A stretch of 64,000 nucleotides of DNA from contig CADAHQ010000006.1 of assembly GCA_902787715.1 (NCBI GenBank), positions 3,311 to 67,310 on the forward strand. Direction: 5' to 3'. This document shows, one piece after another, positions 7,336 through 40,914 of the stretch. The notes under the pieces are model-generated. The model did no database searches. It was not told the DNA's origin and saw nothing but the letters and a program-made list of their open reading frames with translations. This DNA comes from an uncultured Lachnospiraceae bacterium (GTDB taxonomy: Bacteria > Bacillota > Clostridia > Lachnospirales > Lachnospiraceae). The position numbers and the translations under genes were made by a program. Within the stretch, counting starts at the first letter, position 1. Each line of letters starts with the position of its first letter.

Positions 7336-8577
7336 ATGGCTGATGTAAAACCTTTTGTCTGTGTCCGTCCGACACAGGAACTTGCTTCGCGTGTTGCGGC
7401 TCTGCCGTACGATGTTTACAACCGTGCGGAGGCGAAGGAGGCGGCTCTGAAGGATCCGCTCTCGTTCCTCAATATCGACCGCGCGGAGAGCAATCTCCCC
7501 GACGATGTGGACACGTATGATCCCCGTGTGTATGCGAAAGCGAAGGAGCTTCTCGACGCCCGCGAGGCAGACGGCACGTATGTGACCGATACCCAGGAGT
7601 GCTATTACGTTTATGAGCTGATTATGGACGGCCGTTCGCAGACGGGCATTGTTGCCTGTGCGTCCATCGACGACTATGCAAACGGCGTGATTAAGAAGCA
7701 TGAGAATACCCGCGAGGAGAAGGAGCAGGACCGCATCCGTCACGTGGACACCTGCAATGCGCAGACCGGTCCGATTTTCCTTGCATACCGCAGCAATGAC
7801 GCTATCGCCGAGGTGGTTGCGAAGGCGAAGGCCACGGAGCCTTTGTATGCATTTACCGCAGACGACGGTATCACCCACAATGTATGGCGCATCGCGGCAA
7901 ATGCAGATGTCGCAGTGATTCGCGAGGCTTTCGCCGGGATGAACGCAATCTACATTGCGGACGGTCATCACCGTGCGGCATCCGCCGTCAAGGTCGGCTT
8001 CCGCCGCCGCGCAGAGGCCGGTTCCTACACCGGCAAGGAGGAGTTTAATTACTTCCTCTCCGTGCTGTTCCCGGAGGATTGCCTGATGATCCTGCCGTAC
8101 AACCGCGTTGTGAAGGACCTGAACGGCCTTTCCAAGGAGGGATTCCTTGCGGCGGTTTCGGAGCATTTTACGGTTCGTAAGGTTGGTAAAGAGGCGTATG
8201 CGCCGACCGCAAAGGCCACGTTTGGCATGTTCTTAGACGACGAGTGGTATGAGCTTGCGGCGAAGGAGGAGCTTACGAAGATTACCGACCCCGTGGCTTC
8301 TTTGGATGTTTCTCTGTTGCAGGATTACCTGCTCGGGCCGGTGCTCGGCATCGGTGATCCCCGCGTTGACAAGCGCATCGATTTCATCGGCGGAATCCGC
8401 GGCTTGGGTGAGCTCGAGCGCAGAGTGCACACCGATATGAAGGTTGCATTTTCCATGTATCCGACCCAGATTACGGAGCTTTTCGCCGTGGCGGATGCAG
8501 GCCTTTTGATGCCGCCGAAGTCCACCTGGTTTGAGCCGAAGCTTCGCAGCGGTCTGTTTATTCACAAATTATCGTAA
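7336..8577 (+). CDS. DUF1015 family protein
   Basis: The 413-residue protein matches DUF1015 in length and pattern: the opening FVCVRPTQELASRVAALPYD, then LSFLNIDRAE, HVDTCNAQTGPIFLAY and the highly conserved IYIADGHHRAASA segment near residue 212. The function of the family is not established; the HH-rich motif hints at a catalytic or metal-binding site. It is cytoplasmic, with no membrane segments. The ribosome site AAGGAGA precedes the start. A terminator follows within 12 bases of the stop, overlapping the leader of the next gene. Confidence 0.9.
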   Translation: MADVKPFVCVRPTQELASRVAALPYDVYNRAEAKEAALKDPLSFLNIDRAESNLPDDVDTYDPRVYAKAKELLDAREADGTYVTDTQECYYVYELIMDGRSQTGIVACASIDDYANGVIKKHENTREEKEQDRIRHVDTCNAQTGPIFLAYRSNDAIAEVVAKAKATEPLYAFTADDGITHNVWRIAANADVAVIREAFAGMNAIYIADGHHRAASAVKVGFRRRAEAGSYTGKEEFNYFLSVLFPEDCLMILPYNRVVKDLNGLSKEGFLAAVSEHFTVRKVGKEAYAPTAKATFGMFLDDEWYELAAKEELTKITDPVASLDVSLLQDYLLGPVLGIGDPRVDKRIDFIGGIRGLGELERRVHTDMKVAFSMYPTQITELFAVADAGLLMPPKSTWFEPKLRSGLFIHKLS

Positions 8578-34331: not shown

Positions 34332-34362
34332 TTCGTTCGCAACAATGGATTTTGTTTATTCG

Positions 34363-34393
34363 CTGCAGAGGCCGTTTTCCACGACCTCTGCAG
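34363..34393 (+). terminator. hairpin after the EF-G-like gene, no U-tract
   Basis: A perfect 9-bp stem CTGCAGAGG / CCTCTGCAG with a 13-base loop. The following bases are not T-rich, so termination may be partial and the next four genes may be read through. Confidence 0.45.
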
Positions 34394-34430
34394 TATGCTG
34401 TATTGGAATATCGGAAACTGAGGGAGTAGT

Positions 34431-35597
34431 ATGTTTCGGAGAATGACGGAACAGGAGATAGCCATTCGTAAAATTCACGATCTCCGGATGGTGGCGGTCT
34501 ACGAATTCACGGAGGCTGTCAGTGGGGGTAAAATCAATCCCCGGGGGACGGACCCGGACCGCGACGGCTGCACGGCGGTCACGGTTTTGTACGGGGACAA
34601 TGAGCAGATTACCCTGAGCGAGCTCGACCCGTACTATGAAGTTTTAATCGGCAGGGTGTTTGAGCTCTACGGCGAAGCGGCAAATCCTTCCGCCATCCTG
34701 ATGAACGAGAAAACCCGGGCGCTGTTTGAGAGCGGACGATTTACGGAGGAGGCGCATTTTCAGCGGGAGTTTCTCGCAAAAGAAGGCGCCGCAATGCCGT
34801 ATCTGCCCTTCAATGCCCGCGACAACCGCATGTTTCTGCCGGTGGCCACGTTTGTGCTGAAGGCGGCCTGCGGGATTCTGGAGCGGGAGGCGACGGTGGT
34901 TTCCAAAAGCTTCGGCTGGCGCGGAAGAGGGGCCGTCACGCTGCATTCCCGGGGCGTGGACACGCTGCTTCCGGTGGAGGTGGTCATGGCCCGGGAACGG
35001 GAGTACCGCATCCATGTGGGGGAATGGCCGGAGCCGGGCTGCCTGGATTCGCTGCAGATTGATGAGAGCTGGGACAACGACGGGATGGAGGTGGCATTTG
35101 CCACGCGTAAAGGAAATCTGACCGGACGGTTTTCCTGCCGGCTTTCGGAGAACGGCGCGGAGATTTTGTATGACGCGAGTCAGGACGGAAAGCAGGTGTA
35201 TTACAACCGGGAGAAGATCCCCGGGGAGCCGTTTTTACAGGCGGTTCCGGAAAACCTTCGAAGGCTGTTACCGGCGGACATTCCGTTCTCCGCGGCATAT
35301 CGGCTTCCATTGGGAATCATTTACGTTGTCTCAGGGGAGACGAAGCAATATCAGGACATTCAAAAGACCGATTACTGTTCGGCACTTTTGTTTCCGGAGG
35401 CGGAGTATGCCGAGCTCCGGGCATGGACTTTGGTTGAGAACCGGACGACGAAGGTGGTTCTTCGGAAGAATTCCGTCTGTATGAGGCGTGCAATGCTTGA
35501 GGACGGGCGAATCCAGACATACTTTGAGCCGGAGATTGCGGGGGCTTCCGGCATCTATAAGACGGAGCTTGCCGGAAGGTATTTTCTGAGCGAATAA
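34431..35597 (+). CDS. hypothetical protein, first gene of the AAA+/TelA cluster
   Basis: I do not recognise this 388-residue protein. It has no signal peptide or membrane helix, so it is cytoplasmic. Sequence features are a helical start (residues 1-25), a stretch with several acidic turns (RGTDPDRDGC, DNEQITLSELD) and a beta-rich second half. It has no visible nucleotide-binding motif. The gene ends 21 bases before the large AAA+ gene and opens a run of four tightly spaced genes, so it is probably a partner of that machine. Ribosome site GAGGGAG is present. Confidence 0.7.
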   Translation: MFRRMTEQEIAIRKIHDLRMVAVYEFTEAVSGGKINPRGTDPDRDGCTAVTVLYGDNEQITLSELDPYYEVLIGRVFELYGEAANPSAILMNEKTRALFESGRFTEEAHFQREFLAKEGAAMPYLPFNARDNRMFLPVATFVLKAACGILEREATVVSKSFGWRGRGAVTLHSRGVDTLLPVEVVMAREREYRIHVGEWPEPGCLDSLQIDESWDNDGMEVAFATRKGNLTGRFSCRLSENGAEILYDASQDGKQVYYNREKIPGEPFLQAVPENLRRLLPADIPFSAAYRLPLGIIYVVSGETKQYQDIQKTDYCSALLFPEAEYAELRAWTLVENRTTKVVLRKNSVCMRRAMLEDGRIQTYFEPEIAGASGIYKTELAGRYFLSE

Positions 35598-35618
35598 GAC
35601 CGAAAGAGGGAGAAAACG

Positions 35619-37841
35619 ATGGGTATTTTTAATTCGAACCGGGCAGAGACCGACGTAAAACGGGCGGAGCGGCTGCAGCGGGAATGCAAGGCGCGGAACA
35701 ATCCGCAGGGCAGACAGCTTTCGGAGGCCCTTGCACAGTATCAGGAAGATGAGGAATACCGGGTAATCCGGCCGTTTTCGCTGTTTCTTGACGTGATCGA
35801 GGTTATCCTGGCCAATCCCAATTTCGCCAGAGATACCGGCAAAGACACCCTGCGGTACGGCGAGAACATTTACCGACGCATGTTTTTCATGGACGAAAAC
35901 ACGCCGGAGTTCGAACAGCTCAGCAGGTATTTTCTGGAGATGTTCGACCGGGACGGCGTTGTCGCGCGGCGGTTTTTCCTTCCCGAGTTGTATGATCTCT
36001 TCTTTGAACCGGCCAACTATTTGCGCCTGGTGCGGTTGATGCCGACAACGCGGTTGATTGAAAAAGAGAAAAAGTATATTGTGGACTTTGCGACGCAGAT
36101 TCGCGGGTACTGCTCCAACGAGGAGATGTTTACGACCACGGTTGCCGCTTACGTCGCTCGCATCGCTGCGGAGGAGGACCCAAAGACGGTTGCAACGGAG
36201 ATTTACACCGATTTCCGCCGCCTCCTGGGAATCTATTCCGTGAGCGAGGAGCGCATCGCGACGGCAGAGCAGAAGCTTGACGCCGTGGAGCTTGCAACGG
36301 GGCGGCTTTCCGATACGCTGAACCTTTCGGAAGAGCGCATGCGGGCAGCAGCGCAGCTTTCGGAATCGACACTGAAGACGGTTAAGAACTTTACCGACGG
36401 GGAAGTCGCGAGAGTCACATCCCGCGTCAATTCCCTGACGGATACCATGCGGAAGGAGCATGCCGCATTTGTCGAAAACCAGCAGGCGATTGTGTTTGCG
36501 CAGAGGGACGAGCTTATAAACAGCGTCGTCTCGGAGAGCCGGGAAAAACTCACGGAGCTTCGCAAGGAGGCCGACGGTATCTCCGCTAAGCTTCGGGAGG
36601 AGATTCTCTGGGCGAACCGGGAGTCCGCTTCGGTAATTGCCAAAACCGACGAATTCCTACGGGACAACACCCGGATTCAGGAGGTGTTTGCAAACGCAGA
36701 TGAGAGCCGCGAGCTGAGCCGGAAGATTGACAAGCTCATGGTCCTTAACGACACTCCTGTTAACACCGCGCAGCATGCGGCAAATGCACCCGCAGAGGCA
36801 AGCCCGGTAGATTTCGCCGGCACGGGAGCCGCGGCGGGAGTGTATCTTGCGGGCCCGCGGGAAGTCGGGCATTTTCCGGAGATCCCCGAGGAGCGGGAGA
36901 TTCCGCCCGTAAGCCCTCTGCTGGATACGAAGATTCCGTTCCGCGAGCGGTTCGAAACCGCCATGAAGGCGAAGGAAGACATGGCGAATCAGGGCGTTTT
37001 GTTCCACCGGATGTTCGACGATGTGCTGGCGGCGGTCATGGAGAACTCGAACCCCTACCTGATCGGTCCTTCCGGCTGCGGAAAGACGTATATGGTAAGG
37101 CAGATTGCATCGATTCTTTCCCTCGATTATGTGGACATCGGATACATCAACGAGGAATATGACATCCTCGGCTTCCAGACCGCCAACGGCGGCTACAGCA
37201 GACCGAACTTTTATCGTTGCTACAAATACGGCAAGATTGCATTTTGCGACGAGCTGGACAACGGCAACAGCCGCGCCACGGTGAAGCTGAATTCCTTCCT
37301 GACCAACACGGAGGAGGCGAGCTACAGCTTCCCGAACGGGGAAAATGTACCGCGCCACCCGAATTTCCGGATTGTGGCTGCGGGCAACACCACCGGCAAC
37401 GGCGCGGACGAGAATTACAACTCCCGCGAGAAGATCGAGGAATCGGTACAGCAGCGTTTCACGCCGATCTACGTCGGCTATGACAACCGGATGGAAGAGG
37501 AGATCATGATTGATTATCCCGAGTGGTTCCGGTTCCTGGTGGCATTCCGCGCCGCGACGGACGCCTGGACGAAGCACACCCACGCGGGTGCCGCCGGCAT
37601 CATCACGACCCGCGATGCCTCCAAAATATGCCGCTATCTGGACAACGGAAGCTTCAGCGCGCAGAAGATTCTGGAGTACGAATTTATCCAGACAAAGGAT
37701 GAGGAATATCTGGAGTTTTTGGATAAAAACCTTCGCGACCAGCTGGCGAGGATGACGAAGCCCTGCGCGGAGATTTACAAGCTGTTCCACGACCGGGTAC
37801 AGGAGATTATCACGGGGAAGGATACCCTTCGCACCGTGTGA
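35619..37841 (+). CDS. AAA+ ATPase (MoxR/AAA_5 type) with long N-terminal coiled-coil region
   Basis: A 740-residue soluble protein. Residues 1-200 are helical with no known match, about 210-385 predict as coiled coil, and a Pro/Ala-rich linker follows. The AAA+ module fills about 450-700: Walker A GPSGCGKT (483-490), Walker B IAFCDELDN (D544, E545), sensor-1 AAGNTTG (N590) and a likely arginine finger in ESVQQRF. The layout resembles dynein-related MoxR-like ATPases that work with VWA proteins. The next gene may supply a VWA-like partner and the fourth gene is TelA. Its substrate is unknown. Confidence 0.88.
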   Translation: MGIFNSNRAETDVKRAERLQRECKARNNPQGRQLSEALAQYQEDEEYRVIRPFSLFLDVIEVILANPNFARDTGKDTLRYGENIYRRMFFMDENTPEFEQLSRYFLEMFDRDGVVARRFFLPELYDLFFEPANYLRLVRLMPTTRLIEKEKKYIVDFATQIRGYCSNEEMFTTTVAAYVARIAAEEDPKTVATEIYTDFRRLLGIYSVSEERIATAEQKLDAVELATGRLSDTLNLSEERMRAAAQLSESTLKTVKNFTDGEVARVTSRVNSLTDTMRKEHAAFVENQQAIVFAQRDELINSVVSESREKLTELRKEADGISAKLREEILWANRESASVIAKTDEFLRDNTRIQEVFANADESRELSRKIDKLMVLNDTPVNTAQHAANAPAEASPVDFAGTGAAAGVYLAGPREVGHFPEIPEEREIPPVSPLLDTKIPFRERFETAMKAKEDMANQGVLFHRMFDDVLAAVMENSNPYLIGPSGCGKTYMVRQIASILSLDYVDIGYINEEYDILGFQTANGGYSRPNFYRCYKYGKIAFCDELDNGNSRATVKLNSFLTNTEEASYSFPNGENVPRHPNFRIVAAGNTTGNGADENYNSREKIEESVQQRFTPIYVGYDNRMEEEIMIDYPEWFRFLVAFRAATDAWTKHTHAGAAGIITTRDASKICRYLDNGSFSAQKILEYEFIQTKDEEYLEFLDKNLRDQLARMTKPCAEIYKLFHDRVQEIITGKDTLRTV

Positions 37842-37856
37842 TGAGGATGAGGAGCA

Positions 37857-38765
37857 ATGGAGGGTAACAGTCTTTCGGAGAGGGAGTTGCGGAGCCTGTC
37901 GGTGGGACAGTTCGGTGCATTTCCCGTATACAATCTGACCTTTGCCTCGGTGCGGGACCTGCGGGGGTTCCTTGCGGGAGCGCCGGAGATGAAGGAAGTG
38001 TTAAGGCGCTCGGAGGATGCGTCCAAAGAGGAACTGGAGAGCTTCCTGAATCTCGCAAAATGCCTGCAGATGGTGAACTTAAAGGCGTCCCGCTCCAACG
38101 CGGCAGAGCCTGCATTTGTCGGGAATCGGCCAAACGTGCCGGCCTATGTCGCAGGTGCGCCCAAGAATATGTACCGGATTGCCCGCGCAAAGGAGAAGAA
38201 GGTCGTGCAGGTGCTGATTAACCTCACGTACGCGGGGAACACCACGGCGGCGCAGATTAGAAACCGCGGCATTCTTGCACTGAACCTGGTGCGCGTGCTG
38301 GAGCAGAACGGGTATATCGTTGATTTCCGGGCATTTGAAGCAACCTTCGAGGATAATGCGGTCTGCCTGTGCGACGTCGTGCTGAAAAAGCCCGGCGGGA
38401 AGCTGAATCCGGAGAGCTGCTATTACCCCCTTTGCGAACAGCTGGTTTTGCGCCACGCGGTGGGGCTTTTACAGAAGATGAGCCTTCGGATCAAGCCGGA
38501 GGAATCCAGCGGGAGGCTTTCCGACGAGAAGCTTGCGGAGCTTTTGCTTCTCAACCGGCAGTGGAAGATTTCCCTCGGAAACGGTCCCGCGGCAAATGCA
38601 TCCCCCAATAAAGGGAAGCCCGGCCGGCGCCAGATCTTTCTCGGGACGCCCGCAAGCCTCGGGATCACCGGCGGAGACATCTACCGGGATGCCGACAGCT
38701 TTTTACGAAGCCTGAAGCTTGCGGACATGATAACGGTACCGAAATATGAGTCGGAAGAGGAGTGA
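37857..38765 (+). CDS. hypothetical protein with a possible VWA-like fold lacking the metal site
   Basis: A 302-residue protein starting 15 bases after the AAA+ gene. The core (VVQVLINLTYAGNTTAAQIR, then ALNLVRVLEQNGYIVDFRAF) has the strand-loop-helix-strand order of a von Willebrand A domain, but the metal motif DxSxS is replaced by NLTYAG. It resembles phage and bacterial proteins grouped as DUF7192-like; I am not certain of that assignment. MoxR-type ATPases usually have a VWA partner, which supports this reading. No membrane segment or signal peptide. The stop overlaps the region of the next start. Confidence 0.6.
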   Translation: MEGNSLSERELRSLSVGQFGAFPVYNLTFASVRDLRGFLAGAPEMKEVLRRSEDASKEELESFLNLAKCLQMVNLKASRSNAAEPAFVGNRPNVPAYVAGAPKNMYRIARAKEKKVVQVLINLTYAGNTTAAQIRNRGILALNLVRVLEQNGYIVDFRAFEATFEDNAVCLCDVVLKKPGGKLNPESCYYPLCEQLVLRHAVGLLQKMSLRIKPEESSGRLSDEKLAELLLLNRQWKISLGNGPAANASPNKGKPGRRQIFLGTPASLGITGGDIYRDADSFLRSLKLADMITVPKYESEEE

Positions 38766-38767
38766 CA

Positions 38768-39805
38768 ATGGACGAAAAAACTGAAGTGAAATACCTGCGG
38801 GTGCTGGTGGACAACGGATTCTCCGATGTCCCGGAGAGCCGCCTTCCGGAGATCGAAGCGGCGCTTGCAGAGCTGGATGTGTCAAACATCGGCAGCATCA
38901 CAAGCTTCGGAAGCGATACCCAGAAGCATATGGCGGAGCTGTCCCAGCTGGTAATCAACAACTTAAACTCCTCGAGCGTAAACAATGTCGATGAGCTGAT
39001 GCAAAAGACCATCGAAACCTTGGTGGATATCAACGACAATCCCCCGGAAAATACCCCCGCCATCCTCTTTTGGAAAAAGCGAAATCGGTCGGTTGCGGTG
39101 CGGAAGCAATACGATGAGGCCTCCCGGAACGTGGATCGGATTGCGCAGGTTTTGGAGGACCATCAGGTGCGGCTTCTTCGGGACTGCGGACTTTTAAACC
39201 AGCTCTTTTCCCTGAATGAGGAGTATTACCACGAGGCGGCCATCAAGATTGCCGCCGTAAAACTGAAGGCGGATGAGCTTCGTGCGGAGGTTATCGCGGG
39301 GGACGGTGCCGTGGAGGACACGTGGCGAAACACGATTATCGACCGGCTGGAGCGGAGAGCCACCGAGCTTGCCACAACCCGGGTGATTTCCCGTCAACAG
39401 GCGGCACAGATTCGTATGCTGCAGGCGAATTTTGCGATGATTGCCGACAAGCTGCAGTCTGCGCTCTACACCACGATTCCGCTTTGGAAGAGCCAGATTG
39501 TGCTGGCACTCGGTGCGGAGCATGCGAGGGCGGCGCTGCAGACCGACCGCTCCGTCAATGAGATGACGAACCGTCTTCTGGTGCAGAACGCGCAGAATCT
39601 TAAAAATGTAACAGTGGAAACCCAGAAGGCCTACGGGGAAAACAGCATCCGGCCGGAGACGTTAGCGGAGATGAACCGGTCCCTCATCGAAAGCTTCGAC
39701 GAGGTGATGCGCATCCAGAGCGAGAACCGGATCAAGAGGGAGTCCGCGGAGCAGGAGCTTTCCCGAATCGACCGGGAGCTTTCGTCAGGTATTCTCCGCG
39801 ACTGA
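38768..39805 (+). CDS. TelA family protein (toxic anion resistance)
   Basis: A 345-residue soluble protein of the TelA/KlaA family, recognisable from LNQLFSLNEEYYHEAAIKIA, then TRVISRQQAAQIRMLQANFA and TIPLWKSQIVLALGAEHAR. It is mostly helical. TelA was named for tellurite resistance, but its true role is unclear; it is often linked with Ter stress-response genes. Here it follows an AAA+ and a VWA-like gene with no gap, so a common complex is likely. I start at ATG 38768 after a GAGGAG; a GTG at 38762 would add two residues. Confidence 0.9.
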   Translation: MDEKTEVKYLRVLVDNGFSDVPESRLPEIEAALAELDVSNIGSITSFGSDTQKHMAELSQLVINNLNSSSVNNVDELMQKTIETLVDINDNPPENTPAILFWKKRNRSVAVRKQYDEASRNVDRIAQVLEDHQVRLLRDCGLLNQLFSLNEEYYHEAAIKIAAVKLKADELRAEVIAGDGAVEDTWRNTIIDRLERRATELATTRVISRQQAAQIRMLQANFAMIADKLQSALYTTIPLWKSQIVLALGAEHARAALQTDRSVNEMTNRLLVQNAQNLKNVTVETQKAYGENSIRPETLAEMNRSLIESFDEVMRIQSENRIKRESAEQELSRIDRELSSGILRD

Positions 39806-39818
39806 CGCGCGAATCCGA

Positions 39819-39847
39819 TTGACAACAACGGCAAAGGTTGTTACACT
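39819..39847 (+). promoter_or_regulatory. sigma-A promoter of the phosphatase/shikimate kinase gene
   Basis: TTGACA (39819-39824), 17-base spacer and TACACT (39842-39847). The spacer contains the inverted repeat AACAAC-N7-GTTGTT (39824-39842), which could be a repressor site overlapping the promoter. Confidence 0.7.
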
Positions 39848-39882
39848 GTGAAGCGAAAAGATTTACCTGACGGGAGTTACTG

Positions 39883-40914
39883 ATGTTTCGAAGGTTTTAT
39901 CCGGCGGAAATGGCCGAATCCTCCTACGATATCAACTACGAAGAGTTGTATCGGAAGGGGTACCGCGGCCTGATTTACGACATTGACAACACGCTTGTGG
40001 AGCACGGCGCCGACGCGAATGCGGAGGTGGTCGCGCTGTTTCGTCGTCTCAATAAGATCGGCTTCCGCATCTGCCTTCTGTCGAACAACAAGGCCCCCCG
40101 GGTGCGCCGCTTTTACCGAGGAGCGCGCGTCAAGGGCGTAAAACTGCATTACATTTTCAATGCGCAGAAGCCCCGCCGCCGCAACTATTTAAAGGCGATG
40201 GTCCTGATGCGCACCACGAAGAAGAACACGCTCTTTATCGGAGACCAGCTCTTCACGGATGTATACGGGGCGAATCGCTCCGGAATCCGCTCGATTCTCG
40301 TAAAACCGATCAACAAGGCGGAGGAGGTGCAGATTGTCGCCAAGCGGAAGCTTGAGCGCATCGTGATGCATTTCTACCGTAGGAACCGTTGGGAGAAGAT
40401 GCATCAGCTGAACGTCGTTTTGATTGGATTTGCCGGGTGCGGTAAGAGTACGGTCGGGGAGCTTCTGGCGAAGGAGATGGGCTTTGATTTCATCGATACC
40501 GACCGCTATATTGAGGAAAAGGTCGGCATGACCATCTCGGAAATCTTTAAAACCAAAGGAGAAGAGTATTTCCGGGATCTTGAGAGCATGGCGCTAAAGG
40601 GAATTCTGAAATCCCGGACGCACACGGTGATTGCCGCCGGGTCCGGAATGCCGATCCGGCAGAAGAACCAGAAGATGCTTCGAAAACTGGGAACCGTCGT
40701 TTACCTAAACGGAAGCGAAGAGGAGATGAACAAGCGCATGATGACGTTGGACCTCTCCGAAAGGCCGGTTCTGGCTGCGGAGAAGACGGACGAGGACCGG
40801 AAGCAGCTTTTCCTGCGCTGGCGTTTTGTCTATCCGATGGTTGCTCACCGGACTGTGGATATTGACGACCGCACCGCGGAACAGGTCGCGGATGCGGTGA
40901 AGGATGCCCTGTAG
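39883..40914 (+). CDS. YqeG-type HAD phosphatase fused to shikimate kinase
   Basis: A 343-residue two-domain protein. Residues 1 to about 170 are a YqeG family HAD IIIA phosphatase (catalytic DIDNTL with D33 and D35, LSNNK, FIGDQLFTDVYGAN). Residues about 174-343 are shikimate kinase: P-loop GFAGCGKST (182-190), DFIDTDRYIEE, EYFRDLES and the lid RPVL. The usual GGG substrate motif is GSG here. The kinase phosphorylates shikimate in aromatic amino acid synthesis, matching the next gene aroQ. The fusion is intact, with no stop between domains. The role of the phosphatase half is unknown. Confidence 0.9.
   Translation: MFRRFYPAEMAESSYDINYEELYRKGYRGLIYDIDNTLVEHGADANAEVVALFRRLNKIGFRICLLSNNKAPRVRRFYRGARVKGVKLHYIFNAQKPRRRNYLKAMVLMRTTKKNTLFIGDQLFTDVYGANRSGIRSILVKPINKAEEVQIVAKRKLERIVMHFYRRNRWEKMHQLNVVLIGFAGCGKSTVGELLAKEMGFDFIDTDRYIEEKVGMTISEIFKTKGEEYFRDLESMALKGILKSRTHTVIAAGSGMPIRQKNQKMLRKLGTVVYLNGSEEEMNKRMMTLDLSERPVLAAEKTDEDRKQLFLRWRFVYPMVAHRTVDIDDRTAEQVADAVKDAL

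Follow-up and report, generated by a model that had tools for sequence, protein, structure and literature searches.

What does an AAA+ ATPase do in a tight run of genes with a TelA-family protein, a DUF7192 protein and a protein of no recognised family? The question is raised by a 64,000-nucleotide stretch of DNA from an uncultured Lachnospiraceae bacterium (contig CADAHQ010000006.1, positions 3,311 to 67,310; hereafter the window), in which four genes, here called A, B, C and D, follow one another on the same strand. These four genes are one real, conserved and co-inherited unit. Their products may form one cytosolic, ATP-driven remodelling complex, resembling NorQ/NorD or CbbQ/CbbO with a TelA-type scaffold, that would serve the envelope under stress; we put the probability of this whole machine at roughly 0.4, and our confidence in the unit itself is far higher. 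An earlier note on this DNA, made from the letters alone, had described four same-strand genes spaced 21, 15 and 2 bases apart, and the open reading frames, coordinates and strand are all as it had them:

34431–35597, plus strand: gene A, 388 residues, family not recognised; first gene of the unit
35619–37841, plus strand: gene B, 740 residues, predicted AAA+ ATPase of the MoxR/CbbQ/NorQ/phage-CobS type
37857–38765, plus strand: gene C, 302 residues, DUF7192/phrog_1909 family; adjoins B, its likely partner
38768–39805, plus strand: gene D, 345 residues from the ATG at 38768 (347 from the GTG at 38762), divergent TelA-family protein

The Four Genes as One Unit

In the window, A and B are separated by 21 bases and B and C by 15, while C and D lie 2 bases apart if D starts at the ATG at 38768 or overlap by 4 bases if it starts at the GTG at 38762. 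On the Kyte-Doolittle scale no 19-residue stretch of any of the four proteins exceeds 1.4, and for that reason they all look cytosolic.

The unit was followed through the 22 available genomes of the genus, nine of which fall below a standard of 90% completeness and 5% contamination. With C as query, matches appear in 12 of the 22, and a profile of A, a profile of C and the TelA family each match exactly these 12 genomes, leaving the other 10 without a match. TelA gives one match per genome in each of the 12, always beside C; B is present at all 12 loci (the window and L022–L032), and A was recovered at full length in L023 and L024 by tblastn. Such a shared presence of A, C and TelA would be very unlikely if the genomes were independent, a statement that makes no correction for their relatedness.

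At the level of the family, a single-protein scan with C found it in 2 of 150 genomes, a profile of C in 3 of 299 (2 of 298 genera), and the same profile across the phylum in 1 of 398, which is the window's own genome. A scan of contigs with the profile of C yielded 48 loci, whose titles point mostly to Lachnospiraceae and related Clostridia, many of rumen or gut origin. All 48 have both B and C; A was found in 46 of them and D in 47. L061 and L079, which lack A, start inside B, and L078, which lacks D, ends inside C. The order A-B-C-D is kept throughout, wherever the extent of the contig allows. The gaps have medians of 3, 3 and 2 bases (47, 48 and 47 junctions measured, 45, 48 and 47 of them within 100 bases), with the start taken as the first in-frame start codon and single values correspondingly rough (for example, an extreme of −289). 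The co-occurrence on which the earlier note had staked its reading is thus borne out, both in the genus and in the 48 loci.

The four genes also appear to have evolved together. Among the 45 complete loci, pairwise protein distances correlate between the genes with r of 0.65–0.95, the maximum over 500 permutations per pair being 0.28. The ratio of nonsynonymous to synonymous substitution rates (dN/dS) against the nearest relative is 0.07–0.19 for the four genes and reaches 0.26 against more distant ones, for which dS is high and only a rough value; all four are evidently under purifying selection. Mean column identity in 13-sequence alignments is 52% for A, 61% for B, 55% for C and 67% for D, A changing fastest. 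Clustering of open reading frames gave no conserved fifth gene among the 25 largest clusters listed: those found in more than six loci besides A to D are, judging by the listed examples, opposite-strand or other-frame reading frames within the four genes, and the remainder is local synteny in at most six loci. Co-occurrence in the same genomes, recurrence elsewhere and a dN/dS of 0.07–0.19 therefore speak for more than chance.

Presence and Absence at the EF-G Junction

In the window the unit lies between the gene for EF-G and a downstream gene (39883–40914) that, by eye, we take to encode a HAD-type phosphatase fused to a shikimate-kinase-like P-loop domain. The borders of the extra stretch can be placed as follows:

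34363–34403, no strand assigned: left border, inverted repeat after the EF-G gene (CTGCAGAGG ... CCTCTGCAG), from local alignments with L164 and L160
39818–39851, plus strand: right border, sigma-70-like promoter (TTGACA-17-TACACT) ahead of the next gene, from the empty-site alignment

When five empty sites were aligned to the window's flanks, the promoter of the next gene was recognisable in all five and the inverted repeat in two (G158, G170). From these alignments the window's extra stretch runs from about 34404 to 39817 and holds the four genes only.

The downstream gene was found in 21 of the 22 genus genomes, and 21 loci cut around it were examined. EF-G adjoins it directly, about 90–280 bases away, in 12 (L155–L157, L160, L164, L168–L174); the cassette lies between the two in five (L154, L158, L161–L163); in L167 EF-G is about 0.8 kb away, which leaves space for another gene; and in L159, L165 and L166 neither EF-G nor the cassette is within the cut, longer stretches revealing other open reading frames in between. 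Seen by carriage, the 10 genus members without the cassette comprise six with the direct junction, one with the 0.8-kb gap and three with other genes, and six owners (G152, G154, G156, G160, G166, G169) carry the cassette elsewhere and have the direct junction. Because EF-G lies directly against the next gene in 6 of the 10 non-carriers, the cassette comes and goes as a block, by gain or by loss. No integrase or transposase appears among the Pfam matches of A to D.

The junction (window 34332–39882; L178, L179, L180) is a variable site within the genus in its own right. Other open reading frames found there are one of 942 residues in G151 that looks secreted, and recombinase-like and regulator-like ones in G153 and G168, all labels being read from the sequence.

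The AAA+ Motor and Its Phage Relatives

The largest of the four proteins, B, is divided into an N-terminal arm and a C-terminal ATPase:

35619–36938, plus strand: N-terminal helical/coiled-coil arm, about residues 1–440; no family match above the curated cut-off
37065–37088, plus strand: Walker A, GPSGCGKT, residues 483–490
37236–37253, plus strand: Walker B, IAFCDE, residues 540–545
37386–37613, plus strand: sensor 1 N590 to sensor 2 R665, including the arginine-finger candidates R603 and R613

The intact Walker and sensor motifs noticed earlier hold up well, since K489, D544, E545, N590, R603, R613 and R665 are invariant in all 49 B proteins compared; the roles of these residues (Walker, sensor 1, arginine finger, sensor 2) are our assignment. 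An AAA_5 domain is matched at residues 481–614 (7.8e-10, over the Pfam cut-off), the phage family phrog_249 is matched at 1e-30, and the best solved-structure matches of the AAA+ part by phmmer are NorQ (3e-4, 2e-3) and CbbQ (1.5e-3). These matches support placing B among AAA+ proteins of the MoxR/CbbQ/NorQ/phage-CobS kind. A search of E. coli genomes with the DNA segment encoding the AAA+ part gave no match. The long helical or coiled-coil part claimed ahead of the ATPase is likewise there: residues 51–370 contain few Pro or Gly, and the hydrophobic period is 96–102 degrees in four of six 70-residue windows. A comparison by hhalign of two segments of the arm with D and C, and of one of them also with A, found nothing.

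Comparison of the B profile with nine phage ATPases by hhalign gives a probability of 99.9% (4.9e-36, 218 columns). Of the nine phage loci, phiM5, Silverleaf and Tourach were selected through DUF7192, and A511, G1, Tunturi_4, LeBron, Alteromonas PT11-V19 and Jobypre through the ATPase. In every one, the next gene of larger size downstream of the ATPase matches phrog_1909; in Jobypre a single small gene intervenes. The phrog_1909 match is 1.3e-10 for the A511 gene, whose best family is phrog_7005, and 4.9e-7 for the Alteromonas gene; six of the nine ATPases were checked against phrog_249, the other three resting on tblastn and annotation. Because an AAA+ gene stands beside a DUF7192-related gene in 9/9 phage loci, B-C is evidently the bacterial version of a phage gene pair. 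The third protein is a standing neighbor of the AAA+ protein in all 48 bacterial loci and its relatives are so in the nine phage ones, which supports the pairing of motor and partner in the earlier note. Because the phage AAA+ family labelled "porphyrin biosynthesis" adjoins a DUF7192-related gene in all nine (L081, L083, L084, L088–L093), that label is probably wrong for these phages. No functional test of the phage pair was found in the open-access literature.

Three queries led to DUF7192-type genes in phages. The window's own C finds phiM5, over just 21% of its length; the C of L067 finds 238 phage records, 236 from Staphylococcus and 2 from Lactobacillus, and in 191 the match spans 80% or more of that C, with about 25% identity among the matches listed and a best value of 4e-10. 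Relatives of the ATPase occur in 372 phage records, including 236 from Staphylococcus and 2 from Lactobacillus. A DUF7192-type query from a mycobacteriophage hit 202 places in 127 phage records, which suggests that paralogues of phrog_1909-type genes are common in phages. Mycobacterium phage Tourach has two phrog_1909 genes, gp139 and gp131 (L084:3592–4437 and 7508–8356). Pattern scans of IMG/VR returned, for B, 14 loci with a match confined to the surroundings of Walker A and, for C, no relative; C had no match in plasmids. The nine phage ATPases, at 254–425 residues, are too short to hold the 440-residue arm. In a tree of 13 bacterial B modules and the nine phage ATPases the bacterial modules fall in one group, on branches too long to give a direction of transfer between phages and bacteria.

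The DUF7192 Protein and the VWA Question

The earlier note had read the third protein as VWA-like, with NLTYAG in place of the DxSxS metal site, and had proposed searching it against VWA and DUF7192. The motif is where it was said to be:

38220–38237, plus strand: NLTYAG, C residues 122–127, where a VWA domain would carry DxSxS

The DUF7192 half of the proposal stands: C matches DUF7192 (PF23822) at 6.7e-14, with 52.3 bits against a cut-off of 27, all 47 C-family members tested match it at E ≤ 1 (best 3.5e-24), and phrog_1909 is matched at 2e-17. For the VWA half no comparable support appeared, and a crude Chou-Fasman profile of C is too weak to bear on the VWA-like strand order. At the position of the Asp of the metal-ion-dependent adhesion site (MIDAS), the 48 C proteins have N in 30, K in 12, D in 5 and Q in 1, and at the first MIDAS Ser position A in 23, T in 22 and S in 3. 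A profile of 47 bacterial and 10 phage C-family members was compared by hhalign with 55 VWA domains, 28 of the CoxE type and 27 of VWA_2, drawn from 30 loci each, two and three having been dropped for want of an open frame with D-x-[ST]-x-S. Against CoxE the probability was 0.7% and the score 18.5 (five column-shuffled controls, 10.2–21.4); against VWA_2, 0.1% and 10.4 (8.6–10.0); and against both jointly, 0.5% and 17.2 (10.0–16.3). The real profile thus lies about one point or less above all five shuffles for VWA_2 and the joint set and below one shuffle for CoxE, and the positive control, CoxE against VWA_2, gave 99.3%. The best alignment, itself insignificant, places N122 on the MIDAS Asp, as would be expected of a worn VWA domain, and we take it as a lead only.

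TelA and the First Gene

The naming of the fourth protein as TelA is secure, D matching PF05816 at 4.1e-65 with 220.5 bits against a cut-off of 30. In the two remotest loci (L079, L080), where D was recognised solely by Pfam and an iterated profile, the match falls to 30.4 and 28.4 bits, the latter under the cut-off. TelA as such is matched in 163 of 299 sampled genomes of the family, 156 of them over the cut-off, mostly at about 1e-125 among the matches listed, where the D of the operon stands at about 1e-65. A profile of D, run on eight family genomes with TelA scores in the range of D, gave a short partial match in one of the eight. The D of 224–236 residues found in five divergent loci is perhaps a natural minimal TelA. 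In L075 (9760–13080) the cassette's TelA is followed by an XpaC-like gene (PF10112, 1.5e-11) and then by a canonical TelA. PMC12791056 connects TelA and XpaC with tolerance of nisin and tellurite and cites a telA mutant of Listeria with raised sensitivity to both agents; TelA is described as a component of sub-membrane structures in PMC7824862. A "tellurite-resistance" gene of phage phiM5, considered as a possible TelA, encodes only 146 residues and is not used as evidence.

A, the first gene, belongs to no family in Pfam, NCBIfam, PHROGs or PADLOC and has no credible solved structure and, by tblastn, no phage match; its 45-member family shows only scattered weak family matches. It gives one match per carrier genome in the genus and has conserved W, P and G residues. 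No relative of A was found outside these loci, its profile having been run on the genus only, and hhalign of A against D and C found nothing.

Flanking Genes and Tests for Ter and Defence

Thirty-four flanking genes tested for family are housekeeping or vary from locus to locus. Ter systems are described, in PMC7824862, as bringing TerD, TerC, TerB, phosphoribosyltransferase and HAD genes alongside TelA; neither the operon nor the 34 flanking genes match TerB, TerC, TerD or phosphoribosyltransferase. HAD-type genes do adjoin the cassette in places: NT5C does so in L071 and, judged by eye, so does the gene that follows the cassette in the window. PADLOC models give weak P-loop matches of B alone (IetA 16.8 bits, mad8 15.7 bits) and none for A, C or D, and none of the 34 flanking genes, which were not PADLOC-scanned, is a known defence gene by Pfam name. 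The suggestion of a stress or defence complex therefore fares unevenly: direct evidence of defence did not appear, and the patchy, cassette-like presence fits an accessory stress or conflict system.

A few loci have particular neighbors. In three of them (L030, L031 and L032, the same as L043, L040 and L048) a gene follows D that matches a zinc ribbon in L030 and, by eye, begins in a similar way in L040 and L048; L031 has a TPM-domain gene directly after the gene that follows D. In L047 (10976–14647) a gene for a 1224-residue TPR protein begins 16 bases after D. The start of that protein reads to us like a J domain, which Pfam does not match.

A Proposed Machine and Its Rivals

In the complex that we propose, B would form the AAA+ motor ring, and C would be a partner dedicated to it, docked where NorD, CbbO or McrC sits on its own motor, and would direct the activity of the ring. 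The helical arm of B together with D would make up a scaffold, probably near the membrane, and A would be a dedicated target or receptor. ATP hydrolysis would then remodel or assemble the D/A scaffold, and the outcome would be an envelope protected under stress, for example from antimicrobial peptides or toxic anions. We infer the four-protein complex, the role of each part and the envelope function, the last of these from the TelA membership of D and the neighborhood in L075. NorQ and CbbQ act with partner proteins, and the work on NorQ-NorD reports that mutation of the MIDAS does not abolish co-purification with the motor and that McrC, a protein without a VWA domain, uses a similar finger to engage its own motor (PMC9976466 and PMC13036017). 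On these reports, a motor partner that lacks a MIDAS, or is not a VWA protein at all, is mechanically plausible.

Several findings weigh against this machine. The DxSxS-T-D MIDAS is missing in nearly all 48 C proteins and profile-profile comparison with the 55 VWA domains detected no VWA homology of C, so the NorD analogy rests on the pairing of C with B and not on the fold of C. A full-length profile of B has no solved-structure match at 1e-3. D is a divergent branch of TelA, of 224–236 residues in five loci (L044, L058, L075, L079, L080), and because it is divergent and shortened in these, canonical TelA functions may not be transferable to it. The link to XpaC is a single locus (L075), and the other flanking genes give no consistent hint of function.

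Other explanations draw on the same findings. The unit might be an accessory anti-phage or conflict system, in which the phage-type AAA+/DUF7192 pair is turned on phages with A and D as sensor and effector and the whole is carried as a cassette. The patchy distribution among close species, the coming and going of the whole cassette at a site occupied by other genes in some relatives, and the phage relatives of B and C would all suit such a role, and predicted MoxR-vWA ternary conflict systems exist (PMC7159879); yet PADLOC gives the four proteins nothing more than weak P-loop matches, their Pfam matches include no nuclease, NADase, protease or pore family, and the flanks, housekeeping or varied and tested by Pfam name rather than by PADLOC, offer no known defence gene, so that we consider this unlikely. 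A chaperone for cofactor insertion or enzyme maturation like NorQD or CbbQO, with A as client enzyme or adaptor and D as an accessory coiled coil, receives a minor share of the probability: C lacks a MIDAS, A shows no recognisable enzyme or metal-binding family and no client enzyme gene recurs in the flanks, although NorQ and CbbQ are the closest solved structures to the AAA+ part and A stands first in the operon, with one match per genus genome and its conserved W, P and G.

A domesticated phage assembly module, the B-C pair being a morphogenesis chaperone retained for building a particle or filament, is improbable. Homologues of B-C are frequent in Staphylococcus, Listeria and Mycobacterium phages and the MoxR-vWA pair of jumbo phages has been proposed to act in virion assembly (PMC7824862), but capsid, tail and lysis families are absent from the 34 flanking genes tested, no phage relative came from IMG/VR pattern scans with C or from tblastn with A, and the tree, with its very long branches, gives no direction of transfer. 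As for four unrelated genes that are adjacent by chance, the conserved order, the tiny gaps, the same 12 of 22 genomes and the empty-site comparison reduce the probability to almost nothing, and the census refutes it.

Comparison with Known Systems

No description of the four-gene system was found in the open-access literature, a search that left subscription papers largely outside, and we provisionally regard the system as undescribed. It is possible, if doubtful, that the remodelling complex proposed here represents a new class of AAA+ machine, joining a phage-type AAA+/DUF7192 motor to a TelA scaffold and a new family, A; it would then contain the first ATPase whose dedicated task is to put together or take apart TelA assemblies, and DUF7192 would be a new kind of AAA+ partner, a MIDAS-less VWA domain or another fold, common to phages and bacteria.

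With NorQ/NorD and CbbQ/CbbO the unit shares the broad AAA+ group and the placing of a motor gene beside a dedicated partner gene; it differs in that C has no MIDAS or detectable VWA homology, B has a long arm, and there are two extra genes. The MoxR-vWA ternary conflict systems (PMC7159879) likewise combine a MoxR AAA+, a partner and a third protein in one operon. Here, however, C has no vWA match, A, C and D include no such third component by Pfam name, B scores 19.2 bits for bpMoxR against a cut-off of 27, and TelA is absent from the main text of that paper. The XpaC-TelA pair of Firmicutes has in common that D is of the TelA family, but the four genes include no XpaC (PF10112) match, and D is divergent and sometimes shortened. 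TelA is widespread and its function unclear, and a TelA tied to a motor and two partners offers a biochemical handle, the action of the motor on D being measurable; the clean presence and absence among close species also makes the genetics of the cassette direct.

The jumbo-phage MoxR-vWA pair is a phage-borne MoxR ATPase with a partner gene, proposed for virion assembly, whose vWA partner, unlike C, is fused to a metallopeptidase; the paper treats this pair and TelA separately (PMC7824862). The phage phrog_249 and phrog_1909 pair has a homologous AAA+ module and a homologous partner in the same order in all nine loci, whereas the phage ATPases are without the long arm and A and D are not adjacent in phages. 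Hundreds of phage records carry relatives of B-C, frequently under the label "porphyrin biosynthesis" or "hypothetical", and work on the bacterial cassette could explain what the phage pair does.

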